Source of the DNA: Guyparkeria halophila
Lineage (GTDB): Bacteria; Pseudomonadota; Gammaproteobacteria; Halothiobacillales; Halothiobacillaceae
Assembly (NCBI RefSeq): GCF_034479635.1
Contig: NZ_CP140153.1
Coordinates: 1,991,501-2,055,500, forward strand
DNA length: 64,000 nt
Direction of reading: 5' to 3'
Part shown: piece after piece, positions 26,567-31,604 of the stretch
Layout of the letters: every line of letters starts with the position of its first letter
How positions within the stretch are numbered: position 1 is the stretch's first letter
The notes under the pieces: model-generated
Told to the model about the DNA's origin: nothing
Database searches by the model: none
What the model saw: the letters and a program-made list of their open reading frames with translations, nothing else
Translations under genes and position numbers: made by a program

Positions 26567-27280
26567 TCAGGAACCGATTGCCGGCCACTCGAACGCCTCG
26601 TCCGCCTTCCGGAGACGTTCGACCCACTCGGCGTGCGCGTCGGCGGCATCGGGCTCGGCGGCAATCACGCGCAGTCGCGGCCGATCGCTGCGGATCGTGC
26701 CCAGCGCCGCCTGCCCCCCGGTCGCCGTCTCGGCCGGGCTTTCGAACGTCAGGTCCCACTGTCCGCCGGTCAGGGCCAGATAGACGTCGGCAAGGATCTC
26801 GGAGTCCAGCAGTGCGCCGTGCAAGGTCCGGTCGGAGTTGTCGATCTGGTAGCGGCGGCACAGGGCATCGAGGCTGTTGCGCTGCCCCGGGTGCTTGTGC
26901 CGGGCGATGGCCAGCGAATCGGTGACGAGATCCACGTGCTCGGCCAGCGGCGGGAAGCCGGCGCGCTTGAGCTCGGCATCGAGAAAGCCGACGTCGAACG
27001 CCGCGTTGTGGATGATCAACTCGGCGCCGCGGACGTAATCGAGGAATTCCGCGGCCACCTCGGCGAAATGCGGCTTGTTCTCCAGAAAGTCGTTCGACAG
27101 GCCGTGCACGGCGAAGGCGCCAGCGTCGACCGCACGCTGGGGATTGAGGTACTGGTGATAGTTGCGATGCGTCAGACGACGCTCGACCAATTCGACCGCA
27201 CCAATCTCGATCAACCGGTGGCCTTCCTCGACCGGCATGCCGGTGGTCTCGGTATCCAGGATGATCTGTCGCAGGGTCAT
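26567..27280 (-). CDS. dnaQ: DNA polymerase III epsilon subunit (3'-5' proofreading exonuclease)
   Basis: A 237-residue DEDDh exonuclease. ExoI motif LDTETTG (Asp9, Glu11), motif II NAAFDVGFLDAEL and motif III HGALLDSEILADVYL supply the metal-binding acids and the catalytic His. The C-terminal tail, which binds the polymerase alpha subunit, is present. Its start overlaps the YaiI-family gene by 4 bp. In E. coli dnaQ adjoins rnhA; here rnhA is 16 kb away. Confidence 0.95.
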   Translation of the reverse strand: MTLRQIILDTETTGMPVEEGHRLIEIGAVELVERRLTHRNYHQYLNPQRAVDAGAFAVHGLSNDFLENKPHFAEVAAEFLDYVRGAELIIHNAAFDVGFLDAELKRAGFPPLAEHVDLVTDSLAIARHKHPGQRNSLDALCRRYQIDNSDRTLHGALLDSEILADVYLALTGGQWDLTFESPAETATGGQAALGTIRSDRPRLRVIAAEPDAADAHAEWVERLRKADEAFEWPAIGS

Positions 27281-27738
27281 GGCTTGTTCTCACGTTGGTA
27301 CTGGTTCAGCCAGCGTTCCAGCGCGCTGGCGAAGGCCTGCTTGTCTTTCGGCCCCAGCGGCGGCGGACCGCCGGTGGCCACGCCCGACTCGCGCAGCGTC
27401 TGCATGAACTCGCGCTGGACCTGACGGCCACGAATGGATTCGTTGGAAAACGCCTCGCCGCGCGGACCGATGACGGCCACGCCCTTGGCGAGCGCGTCGG
27501 CGGCCAGCTCGATGTCCGCGGAGATCACCAGATCCCCCGCCTCGGCGGCCTCGACGATGGCATTGTCGGCGACATCGAAGCCCGGCGCCACCTGCATGAA
27601 ACTCACCCGCTTGGAGCGCGGCACCGCCAGTGGGTGATTGGCCACCAGCACCACGTCCACGCCGACGCGGTCGGCGGCGCGGAAGAGCATCTGCTTGATG
27701 GGGACGGGGCAGGCGTCGGCGTCGACCCAGATGGTCAT
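27277..27738 (-). CDS. YaiI/YqxD family protein (UPF0178)
   Basis: A 153-residue protein of the PIN-like YaiI/YqxD family. The conserved segments IWVDADACPVPIK, DVVLVANHP, GFDVADNAIVEAAEAGDLVISADIELAADAL and RGEAFSNESIRGR are all present. Acidic residues in DADACP, D(A)DN and SADIELA resemble a nuclease-type metal site, but the function is not established. I start at the ATG at 27738. The frame runs on to 27855, but that part falls in the repeat element upstream. It overlaps dnaQ by 4 bp. Confidence 0.92.
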   Translation of the reverse strand: MTIWVDADACPVPIKQMLFRAADRVGVDVVLVANHPLAVPRSKRVSFMQVAPGFDVADNAIVEAAEAGDLVISADIELAADALAKGVAVIGPRGEAFSNESIRGRQVQREFMQTLRESGVATGGPPPLGPKDKQAFASALERWLNQYQRENKP

Positions 27739-27826
27739 GTCGTTTTCCGTGGTGGGATGAGGTGGAGAGTTTCGCATGCCGAGTGCATGGCACGGAACGG
27801 GGCGCCGATCCGGACGGGGTGGAGGT

Positions 27827-28110
27827 TTTCGCACGCCAAGCTCGTGGAGAGGCACGGATTAGCCACCGTGCGTGGCGCGCGAGCCCCTTTTCTTGCTTGC
27901 CCAAGAAAAGGAGCGAAAAGAAGGGCACCCCGGCGCCCTGGCCCTACGGGCCTTCGAGCCCGGACAAGGTCCGGGCTCGAAGCCTTGCGACCGGCGGCTG
28001 CCTTCGGGGTCGGCTCGACGTGACGTCCTGTCACGGCGAGCCTCGGAGCGACTTCCCTGTCGCTCCGACCCCGAGCCATCCACCAGCCGCAAGGCAGGGC
28101 GCAAGGGGAT
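27827..28110 (+). repeat. Left arm of the foldback element: chain of six hairpins
   Basis: In order: H1 GCACGG/CCGTGC (27852-27871); H2 TTTTCTTG/CAAGAAAA (27888-27909); H3 GGCCC/GGGCC (27940-27952); H4 a 14-bp perfect stem at 27952-27965 with 27969-27982; H5 a two-part stem with GGCTCG...CGAGCC outside and GTGAC/GTCAC inside, loop GTCCT (28012-28042); H6 a 10-bp perfect stem at 28043-28052 with 28059-28068. Between the hairpins are blocks identical or nearly so to the right arm. Confidence 0.85.
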
Positions 28111-28200
28111 TTGATGCCCATCCATCTGGTGGTATCGCAAACATGCCCAAGACAACTGGGAGACCCGGACTTCACACTGCTCGCGTTATCGAAGGGTCGA

Positions 28201-28482
28201 GCCCCTTGTGCCTTGCCTCGCGGGCGAGGGGTTGCAGGGTCTGGCCGGCATGGACGCCGGCCAGAGGTTCGCCGCGACAGGACGTCGCGTCGAACCGACC
28301 CGTCCGCAATCCCTCGTCCGCGAGGCTGATCGTCGCGGATATCATCCGGGACGATCAGGCCCGAAGGGCCAAGGCACCGGGGTGTCTTCTTTTCGTCGGT
28401 TTTCTTGGACAAGCAAGAAAATCGACTCGCACGCCGGGCACGGCGGCCAATCCGTGCCTCTCCACGAGCTTGGCGTGCGAAA
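28201..28482 (-). repeat. Right arm of the foldback element: same hairpins, compensatory changes
   Basis: Read on the minus strand the same six hairpins recur: H1 at 28437-28458, H2 at 28400-28421, H3 at 28358-28370, H4 at 28326-28358 (9 bp and 5 bp around one mismatch), H5 at 28266-28296 and H6 at 28241-28264 (9 bp perfect). H5 changes the outer pair GGCTCG/CGAGCC to GGTTCG/CGAACC and the inner GTGAC/GTCAC to GCGAC/GTCGC: both sides of each pair change together. H4 and H6 have mostly different sequence but still pair. That pattern indicates selection for structure. Confidence 0.85.
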
Positions 28483-28493
28483 CCCCGACAAAC

Positions 28494-31400
28494 TCAAACC
28501 ATCGAATCGTCCGTCATATCCCGCTCCAACCGACGCGCCACATCCCCCGGCGACCCGGTCCGCCGCGCCAGCAGGTCGTAGGCAACCGGCACCACGAACA
28601 ACGTCAGCACGGTCGCCAGGGCCACGCCGGCGAAGATGACGGTCCCGATCACCAACCGCGTCTCGGCCCCCGCGCCGCTGGAGGCGATTAATGGAATCGA
28701 GCCCGCCATGGTGGTGACCGCGGTCATCAGGATCGGGCGCAGGCGGGTGACGGCCGCCTCCTCGAGCGCTTCGGCGAACGCACGACCCTGATCGCGCAAC
28801 TGGTTGGCAAACTCGACGATCAAAATCCCGTTCTTCGCCGCCAGCCCCACCAGCATCACCAGCCCGACCTGGCTGTAAATGTTGAGCGACAGCCCGGTGA
28901 GGTGCAGGCCCAGCAGCGCCCCGAGGATCGCCAGCGGCACGGTCAGCATGATCACGAACGGATGCACCAGGCTCTCGAACTGCGCGGCCAGCACCAGGAA
29001 CACCACCAGCGCCCCGAGCACCAGCATGAACACGGTCGCCCCACCGGCCTCGCGGTAGTCGCGCGACTGGCCCTTGACGTCGGTCTGGGCCTCGGGCGGC
29101 AGGATCTCGTCGACCGTGTCCTCGAGGTAGGTCAACGCCTCGCCCAGCGGGTAGTCCTCGGCCAGGTCCGCCTCGATGGTGATCGCGCGGATGCGGTTGA
29201 AACGGTTGAGGGTCGCCGGTCCGGCAAAGTCGGTCAGGCTGACAAGGCTGCCGAGCGGGATCAGTTCGCCGCTGGTCGCCGAGCGCACGTAGATGTTGTC
29301 GATCGCGCTCGGGCTGCGCTGGTTCTCGCGCTCGCCCTCGAGGATCACGTCGTATTCCTCGCCATCATCGACGTAACGCGTCACCGTGCGCCCGCCCAGC
29401 AGCGTCTCGAGTGTGCGGCCGATCTCGGTCACGGTCACGCCCAGATCGGCGGCGCGATCGTAGTCGATCTCGACCTTGAGCTGCGGCTGGGTTTCCTTGT
29501 AGTCGGAATCCAGCCCGGTCAGCCGCGGATTGTCCTCGCGGATATGGGCAAGCAGCGTGTCGCGCCACTCGGCCAGCTCCTCGTACTCGCCGCCACCGAG
29601 GACGAACTGCACCGGTTTCTGCACCTGCTGACCGAAACCCTGACGCATCACCGGGAAGGCGCGCACCCCGGGCAGATCGGCGACCAGGGTGCGCACCTCG
29701 TCCATGATCGCCCAACCGGAGCGCCGGTTCGCCCAGTCATCGAGAATGATGATGCCAAAGCCGGTATTGAAGTTCTCGATGTTGCCCCAGCCGCGTGGCG
29801 CACGGATCAGGGCGCGCTCGACCTCGCCCGACTCGATCAGCGGACCCAGGCGCGCCTCGATCTCGTCCATGTAATCGAGCATGAAGTCGAAACTGGCCCC
29901 TTCGGGCCCGTTGACCACGATGAAGAACGCGCCGCGGTCCTCGGACGGGGTGTATTCGCGCGGCAGCTGGTCGGCCAGCCAGACGGTACCGGTCACCAGG
30001 CCGAAAAACAGCAGCACCACCAGCCAGCGCAGGCGCAAGGCCCCACGCAGCAGGACGCGATAACCCCGCCGACTGGCATCCAGCAGCGATTGCACCGTCG
30101 CGGCCAGTCGGCCGGACTGCTCAGGCCCGCCGAGGATCTTCGAGGCCATCATCGGCGTGAGCGTCAGGGCGAGGAAGCTCGATATCACCACGGCCGCGGC
30201 GAGCGTCAGCGCGAACTCGGAGAACAGCCGACCGATATCGCCCTCGAGAAAGGTCAGCGGCAGGAACACGGCCACCAGCACCAGGGTGGTGGCCACCACC
30301 GCAAACGCGATCTGCCGGGTGCCGCGAAAGGCGGCCACCAACGGCGTCTCGTCGTATTCCTGGATGCGGCGATTGACGTTCTCCAGCACCACGATGGCAT
30401 CGTCGACGATCAGGCCGATCGCCAGCACCAGCGCCAGCAGCGTGAGCAGGTTGATGGTAAAACCGAACAGGTAGAGCGCGGCAAAGGTACCGACCAGGGC
30501 GATCGGCACGGTGATCGCCGGAATCAGGGTGCTGCGCAGGTTGCCCAGGAACAGGAAGATGGTCAGCACCACCAGTCCGATGGCGATGAACAGGGTCGAG
30601 ACCACCTGGCGCACGGCATTCTCGACAAACACCGAGGTGTCGTAGCTCAGATTGAGCGTCATGCCGTCGGGCAAGGTGCCGAGCAGCCGCTCGCGCTCGG
30701 CCTTCGCGCCGCGGGCGATCTCCAACACGTTGGCGGTCGACTGCTTGATCATCCCGAGTCCCACGCGCGGCACGCCATTTTCGCGGAAGATGCTGCGGGT
30801 CTCGACCGCACCGACCTCCACCCGGGAGACATCCGCCAGCCGCACCAGGTGGCCGCCCTCGCCGCGCTTGATGACCAGATCACGGAAGTCGGCGGCGGTC
30901 TCGAAATTGCGCGGCAGGCGGACGATGAACTGGCGCTCGCGCGACTCGATCGCACCGGCCGGTAGTTCGACGTTCTCGGCCCGTAGCGCCGATTCGATAT
31001 CGCCGACCGCCAGCCCATGGGCGGCCAGCGCCTGGCGGTCGAGCCAGACACGCATCGAGTAGGTCTGGCTGCCGGAGACCCGCACCCGGGCGACGCCGGG
31101 CAGCACCGAAAAGCGATCCACCAGGTAGCGCTCGGCGTAGTCGGTCAGTTCGGCGATCGAATACTCCTCGCCGGACAGCCCCAGCCAGAGCACCACCTCG
31201 CTGGAGGAGTCGGCCTTCTCCACCTCGGGCGGGTCGGCCTCCTCGGGCAGATTGTCGAGCGCGCCGTTGATGCGATCGCGCATGTCGTTCGCCGCCGCGT
31301 CCAGATCGCGCGACAGGGCGAACTCCACGGTGATCGACGAGCGGCCGTCCTCGCTCGACGAGGTAATCATCTCGATACCCTCGACGCCGGCGATGCGGTC

Positions 31401-31604
31401 CTCGATCACCTGGGTGATGCGCGTTTCCACCACCGAGGCCGAGGCACCGGGGTAACGGGTGTCGACACTGACCACCGGCGGGTCGATGTGCGGGTACTCC
31501 TGCAACGGCAGCCGATCGAGCGCGATCAGGCCGAAGGCGACCAGCAGCGCCGACAGCACACCGGCCAGTACCGGACGACGGATGGAAAGATCGGAAAGGA
31601 TCAC
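28494..31604 (-). CDS. RND efflux transporter permease, HAE1-type (pump 1)
   Basis: A 1036-residue inner-membrane RND pump with twelve helices and two large periplasmic loops. The N-terminus LSIRRPVLAGVLSALLVAFG, LGLIVDDAIVVLENV (TM4 proton-relay region with the Asp pair), NGPEGASFDFM and GLAAKNGILIVEFANQLRDQG (TM10/11) are HAE1 features. It exports hydrophobic compounds by proton antiport. It overlaps its adaptor gene upstream by 4 bp. No TolC-type outer-membrane channel is nearby, so a shared one is presumably used. Its stop codon lies about 10 bp from the foldback element. Confidence 0.95.
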   Translation of the reverse strand: MILSDLSIRRPVLAGVLSALLVAFGLIALDRLPLQEYPHIDPPVVSVDTRYPGASASVVETRITQVIEDRIAGVEGIEMITSSSEDGRSSITVEFALSRDLDAAANDMRDRINGALDNLPEEADPPEVEKADSSSEVVLWLGLSGEEYSIAELTDYAERYLVDRFSVLPGVARVRVSGSQTYSMRVWLDRQALAAHGLAVGDIESALRAENVELPAGAIESRERQFIVRLPRNFETAADFRDLVIKRGEGGHLVRLADVSRVEVGAVETRSIFRENGVPRVGLGMIKQSTANVLEIARGAKAERERLLGTLPDGMTLNLSYDTSVFVENAVRQVVSTLFIAIGLVVLTIFLFLGNLRSTLIPAITVPIALVGTFAALYLFGFTINLLTLLALVLAIGLIVDDAIVVLENVNRRIQEYDETPLVAAFRGTRQIAFAVVATTLVLVAVFLPLTFLEGDIGRLFSEFALTLAAAVVISSFLALTLTPMMASKILGGPEQSGRLAATVQSLLDASRRGYRVLLRGALRLRWLVVLLFFGLVTGTVWLADQLPREYTPSEDRGAFFIVVNGPEGASFDFMLDYMDEIEARLGPLIESGEVERALIRAPRGWGNIENFNTGFGIIILDDWANRRSGWAIMDEVRTLVADLPGVRAFPVMRQGFGQQVQKPVQFVLGGGEYEELAEWRDTLLAHIREDNPRLTGLDSDYKETQPQLKVEIDYDRAADLGVTVTEIGRTLETLLGGRTVTRYVDDGEEYDVILEGERENQRSPSAIDNIYVRSATSGELIPLGSLVSLTDFAGPATLNRFNRIRAITIEADLAEDYPLGEALTYLEDTVDEILPPEAQTDVKGQSRDYREAGGATVFMLVLGALVVFLVLAAQFESLVHPFVIMLTVPLAILGALLGLHLTGLSLNIYSQVGLVMLVGLAAKNGILIVEFANQLRDQGRAFAEALEEAAVTRLRPILMTAVTTMAGSIPLIASSGAGAETRLVIGTVIFAGVALATVLTLFVVPVAYDLLARRTGSPGDVARRLERDMTDDSMV

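Follow-up and report, generated by a model that had tools for sequence, protein, structure and literature searches.

What kind of sequence is the long foldback that lies between two minus-strand genes in the chromosome of Guyparkeria (Halothiobacillaceae; a single contig of 2.45 Mb), and what in it is being preserved? Within the window, i.e. the whole stretch of 64,000 nucleotides that was analyzed, the element occupies positions 27827-28482 and consists of a left arm (A, 27827-28094, minus strand), a centre, and a right arm (B, 28216-28482, plus strand), bounded by the ends TTTCGC...GCGAAA that are common to the nine paired copies of this genome. Each arm reads outward from the centre and matches the family profile over all 267 positions (arm-type clusters 6 and 3 for A and B, respectively). 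On one side, an RND efflux gene of the AcrB/AcrD/AcrF family ends with its stop codon 11 bp from the element (28494-31604; PF00873, E 2.7e-294), and on the other is the downstream DUF188 (YaiI/YqxD) gene, which runs in the same direction (27277-27741; PF02639, E 1.8e-43). The foldback described in the first-pass annotation is real, with an inverted repeat (27824-27923 / 28386-28485) of 100 nt that is 86% complementary, and the outermost 34 bp are indeed perfect (34/34) at this copy. The whole element folds at -481.5 kcal/mol (z about -31), and no promoter was found in its centre.

Identity and distribution of the repeat

The first-pass annotation recognized no named family, which proved mistaken, as both arms exceed the gathering threshold (43 bits) of the TwoAYGGAY RNA (RF01731): arm B scores 60.7 bits at 28209-28327 (+), a match that spans its helices P1-P3, and the core of arm A scores 46.5 bits at 28005-28073 (-). 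The same model also matches most other copies in the genome, with 16 hits in loci of this genome. The Rfam model covers P1-P3 only, and the three-way junction with two GGA-looped hairpins of the published motif (Weinberg et al., 2010; PMC2864571) is shared by the element, in which an outer stem closes a pair of adjacent, covarying hairpins and GGA is found in the P2 loop of 109/110 arms and in the P3 loop of 68/110. In contrast to the Rfam motif, the Guyparkeria unit runs on through P4-P8 to a sharp end, GCGAAA, its P3 loop is often ACGAN, and it is multi-copy, occurring mostly as head-to-head pairs of two arm types whose orientation at some sites differs from one species to another. Within arm A, the P4-P6 part also shows a weak similarity (27915-27993, minus strand; 28.2 bits, below the cut-off of 43) to ncS54, a Burkholderia sRNA (RF02871; PMC5688073) that may be a distant relative of this part, a match that we offer as a lead only.

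Searches with each arm recovered nine copies in this genome that are paired head to head and seven arms that stand alone, and further copies in its relatives, which bears out the proposal of a structured, roughly 280-bp repeat that forms a head-to-head pair here and has many copies elsewhere. The family was found in 17/27 genomes of the taxonomic family (with a maximum of 55 hits in one genome) and in 12/232 sampled gammaproteobacterial genomes, and was absent from all 14 control genomes; arm B had no match among plasmids or phages. The contigs on which the conserved P3 core recurs are from Guyparkeria and other Halothiobacillaceae, and a genome from a different taxonomic family (G216) has an identical unit end, GCGAAA. 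Taken as a whole, the element is probably an intergenic, non-autonomous dispersed repeat composed of two outward-reading TwoAYGGAY units of unlike type, A and B, which are arranged head to head. The motif itself is already known, and what is newly described here is where the unit begins and ends, its invariable pairing of two arm types and its inversions; none of these three is mentioned in the passages on TwoAYGGAY, or in the papers on repeats, that searches of the open-access literature turned up. TwoAYGGAY, an orphan RNA motif since 2010, thereby becomes part of a larger repeat with defined ends, for which the strand under selection, the number of copies, their arrangement in pairs and their inversion from species to species are now established.

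The copies that were checked sit between mutually unrelated genes, with no gene association among their neighbors, and no target-site duplication was found in nine copies. The copy at site e25 is common to eight species and clearly absent in G003 only. The first-pass annotation had proposed looking for empty sites in relatives, and an element-less allele does exist at e25 in G003, although the flanks there are too diverged to show the exact junction or to separate loss from a copy never gained. The unrelated gene settings, the lack of duplications and the sharing of e25 by eight species together indicate that the family is dispersed yet old and mostly vertically inherited within the genus. Such a distribution invites comparison with REP/REPIN/BIME-type repeats mobilized through single-stranded DNA hairpins by a Y1 (RAYT-like) transposase, an origin that we consider unlikely. 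The element shares with these repeats (PMC2817692) an extragenic location, multiple copies, inverted pairing and solo units, and to these may be added the lack of target duplication, the selection for folding of one strand (see below), and the presence of Y1_Tnp genes in 6/11 genomes of the genus. However, its unit of about 270 bp is some ten times longer than REPs of 20-40 bp, it ends in TTTCGC and not in the GTAG/TGTAG with which a REP starts (PMC2817692), its pairs are heterotypic, and it has no consistent Y1 transposase, since G002 and G003 have several copies and no Y1_Tnp hit. A RAYT-driven REP was rejected because neither ends nor size fit, and the REP palindrome is not present; the distribution of Y1 genes points both ways. 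A single strong Y1 transposase (143 bits; G009:C12:14664-15026, L155) was observed in the genus, which otherwise has only divergent Y1-like genes.

Structure, strand and predicted ligand of the arms

The first-pass annotation counted six hairpins per arm in the same order; the common order stands, but a more accurate description gives every arm eight helices that follow one another outward from the centre, with P1-P3 forming a three-way junction. In arm B (plus strand) the helix map places P1 at 28215-28326 (outer stem 28215-28235 with 28306-28326, recognized from its inverted repeat and covariation), P2 at 28242-28263 (loop ATGGAC) and P3 at 28266-28296 (loop AGGAC), the latter two also backed by covariation counts, followed by P4 (28326-28358), P5 (28358-28370), P6 with a T-rich tract behind it (28371-28395), P7 (28396-28425; TTTTCTTG..CAAGAAAA) and the terminal hairpin P8 (28427-28480). 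Arm A, read on the minus strand, has P2 at 28045-28066 (sense loop AGGGAA), P3 at 28012-28042 (sense loop AGGAC), P4 at 27952-27982, P6 at 27922-27939, P7 at 27884-27913 and the terminal hairpin P8 at 27829-27882. The two-sided changes first noticed between the arms are correct for P3 (the former H5), in which GGCTCG..CGAGCC and GTGAC..GTCAC at 28012-28042 stand against GGTTCG..CGAACC and GCGAC..GTCGC at 28266-28296, and likewise P4 and P2 (the former H4 and H6) remain paired while being mostly unlike between arms.

These compensatory changes are statistically supported, and the structure of the arm is selected. Among 110 distinct arms, nine column pairs exceeded a null in which both the tree and the number of changes in each column were preserved (20 alignments simulated by a script modelled on R-scape, which itself was not the program used), and seven of the nine are consensus base pairs, five in P2 and two in P1; P6 showed no covariation in this test. 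A separate sequence-only alignment of 35 arms had double-sided changes at 24/41 pairs and a covariation score of 0.413, compared with 0.152 in shuffles (0/500) and at most 0.103 with slid partners; RNAalifold returned the same helices from it, and P2 was paired in 100% of cells with its pair types changing freely. The early view that structure and not coding is preserved therefore passes a test against a phylogeny-preserving null, and significant stem covariation is found in both alignments, so that neither of the two results that would have counted against it, a lack of further copies or of significant covariation, was obtained. Selection also has a direction, as parsimony on the outward strand counted 116 changes from Watson-Crick to G-U pairs versus 28 to A-C, and that strand folds better by 16-22 kcal/mol per arm. 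Decay through G-U far exceeds decay through A-C on the outward strand, which shows that this strand is the selected one, because selection on the opposite strand should reverse the excess, whereas no bias should arise from a double-stranded cruciform. The G-U excess is also expected from a single-stranded DNA structure and does not separate RNA from single-stranded DNA. With regard to the suggestion of a structured RNA acting at the 3' end of the RND transcript, the strand is borne out and the specific role for RND is not, since copies adjoin unrelated genes.

Amid the freely changing stems, the P2 loop with its closing pair, C-ANGGA(C/T)-G, is nearly invariant, and in P3 CGA replaces GGA in 42/110 loops. 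The P2 loop CANGGAYG, which gives the arm an ACANGGAYGU-like loop, agrees with the consensus RUACARGGAUGU obtained by selection for binding to the global regulator CsrA, and with the six-base loops of the selected RNAs (PMC7652899), and TwoAYGGAY had earlier been proposed from motifs as a CsrA ligand (PMC4333381). The genome carries one csrA gene (PF02599), and csrA is present in 23/27 genomes of the family. We therefore predict CsrA as the likeliest ligand of the arm loops, an assignment that is held tentatively, at less than even confidence. Weighing against it, Halothiobacillaceae genomes without the element carry csrA too, many P3 loops have CGA as noted above, and the 8-bp P2 stems exceed those of most selected CsrA hairpins (PMC7652899). 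The several hairpins with GGA loops recall the CsrB, RsmY and RsmZ sRNAs, but the element is a dispersed repeat and not a single regulated gene, and its CsrA binding is predicted only. The CsrB model had no hit in this genome, and the RsmZ model matched it below the cut-off only, at a level also reached in control genomes.

If transcription of a neighboring gene continued across the element, the arm reached last would always be transcribed in its sense direction, whichever side the transcript came from. The sense arm could then fold into the three-way junction and present loops ANGGAY (P2) and A(G/C)GAN (P3), and P2, together with P3 where it has GGA, might bind CsrA, in which case a CsrA site or sponge would be provided by the 3' part of the message or by a fragment processed from it, a step for which our confidence is likewise tentative and short of even. 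Owing to the head-to-head layout, such a device would work whichever way it is read and would survive an inversion. Against this reading, the A:B foldback of a complete read-through transcript exceeds local folding in stability by about 85-100 kcal/mol, and the local arms would accordingly need to form first, during transcription. The CsrA idea can now be directly tested in cultured Guyparkeria, which are sulfur-oxidizing bacteria.

A bidirectional intrinsic terminator, in which P6 and the T-rich tract would stop transcription proceeding along the sense strand of either arm, is a weaker alternative than CsrA binding and in our judgement rather improbable. Terminator-like matches do lie within P6 of both arms (28371-28388, plus strand; 27939-27922, minus strand), and the TTCTTTT tract is nearly invariant. 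Against this, three matches compare with 1.0 (sd 1.1) in shuffles, the T tract is interrupted, P6 lacks covariation and is poorly complementary in other lineages, and termination would leave P1-P3 and P7-P8 unexplained.

More doubtful still is a long double-stranded hairpin RNA, formed by arm A on arm B, that would stabilize the 3' ends of messages or be cut there, with the small hairpins being incidental. The fold of -481.5 kcal/mol falls to -396.9 kcal/mol when long-range pairs are barred, and the element lies only 11 bp behind the RND stop codon, both of which would suit such an RNA, but covariation tracks the local hairpins. In addition, across 23 A-B pairs, the identity of A to B within one element equals that between elements to within 0.02 in every helix (0.58 and 0.58 in P2; 0.38 and 0.38 in P4), and since belonging to the same element makes two arms no more similar, the long foldback cannot be under maintenance and was ruled out as a conserved structure. 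Each arm is instead a unit that folds independently of its partner.

Pairing, inversion and ends of the arms

Clustering resolves two arm types (A and B) in the main subfamily and two (A' and B') in a second one, and all 33 distinct divergent pairs join unlike types (23 A+B, nine of the second subfamily and one mixed). For the main subfamily alone, the chance of purely heterotypic pairing would be about 1e-7 if partners were random, a figure that ignores the shared ancestry of orthologues and is in truth larger. The two halves of the repeat are thus kept different and are not homogenized, which neither simple selfish-repeat nor foldback models predict. In two other genera of the family, g3 and g4 (L199-L204, L083, L087, L089 and L097), arms were observed in a convergent, tail-to-tail arrangement in place of the head-to-head one, sometimes in alternating rows.

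The orientation of the pair differs between species at orthologous sites. At the RND/DUF188 site (W), the A arm points toward DUF188 in G000 and G001 and toward the RND gene in G008, and in G004 it is the B arm that points toward DUF188. At e25, the orientation found in six genomes is reversed in G007 and in G002, whose genome is a single contig; e469 is split three to two, and at e460 all seven genomes agree. The interior is therefore inverted in some species at 3/4 well-sampled sites (W, e25 and e469), i.e. both orientations occur at the same site, as in an invertible element, between species. G008 and several others are metagenome assemblies, in which single cases of inversion could be assembly errors. 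The inversions are separate events, as each site has its own set of inverted genomes. In G002 and G007 the e25 interior from P7 to P1 matches the opposite arm of relatives, and their left P8 is closest to the same-side P8 of G006 and G010 (0.92 and 0.83; 0.87 and 0.80) and not to that of other relatives, so the exchange probably took place between P7 and P8, and P8 seems to stay bound to its site when the interior inverts. At the RND site of G008 (C262; L145, L110), an extra stretch and a second element-like end (GGCGCGTGAAACC, then CACTTGGCGTGCGAAACCCC) were seen between the inverted element and the gene, and this contig ends within the repeat.

Recombination between the two arms is the simplest and most likely cause of these inversions. 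A phase-variable DNA switch, in which a dedicated recombinase flips the interior between the P8 hairpins, would also account for inversion at three of the four sites in different genome sets and for the switch point between P7 and P8 at e25, but homologous recombination between the arms gives the same outcome, inversion is seen between species only and not within a culture, and the neighboring genes have no common theme, which leaves such a switch a poor prospect. If inversion is combined with the predicted CsrA binding, the pairs might act as genome-wide invertible two-arm RNA cassettes that set two distinct CsrA-binding modules, head to head, beside genes, with inversion swapping A for B in the message and so tuning post-transcriptional control at many unrelated loci, a proposal that we put forward as speculative and improbable as it stands.

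The perfect 34-bp terminal repeat is unique to the present copy. The other eight copies match at 13-20 of the 34 end positions, and all copies share only about TTTCGCRCGCC (~11 bp) at their ends; a long terminal repeat was accordingly excluded as a family feature, being present in a single copy of nine. The orthologous copy in the near relative G001 resembles the end sequence of the present copy on the right side only, and this suggests that the left end here may have been converted by the right. The earlier suggestion of a MITE, here taken to include a foldback transposon whose long terminal inverted repeats would be the substrate of a DDE transposase, is very improbable, since the sharp TTTCGC...GCGAAA ends of the nine paired copies and the element-less allele at e25 in G003 are outweighed by the lack of target-site duplication (0/9 copies), the confinement of the long repeat to this copy, the conserved terminal repeat of only about 11 bp, the independent evolution of the arms and their occurrence alone, and the absence of a same-ended parent transposon from the loci examined. 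With ERIC/RU-type repeats and MITEs of bacteria (PMC2229807), the element shares a small, non-autonomous, palindromic and intergenic character, but it differs in having neither target-site duplication nor a conserved long terminal repeat, and in the selection on the inner RNA-like structure of each of its arms.

Two kinds of insert were also observed within arms. In arm A of element e606 (C1:606557-607450; L064), the sequence is broken by a nested insert that has AGGGAATCTCTGC..GCAGAGATTCCCT as its terminal repeats, and loci of G001, G003 and G004 contain arms with a break at this very position of the profile. Furthermore, a 72-bp hairpin-forming sequence is present in three full copies (C1:610242-610313, 1553532-1553603 and 1553924-1553994), each of which lies within the P2 loop of an arm; in one element both arms carry it.
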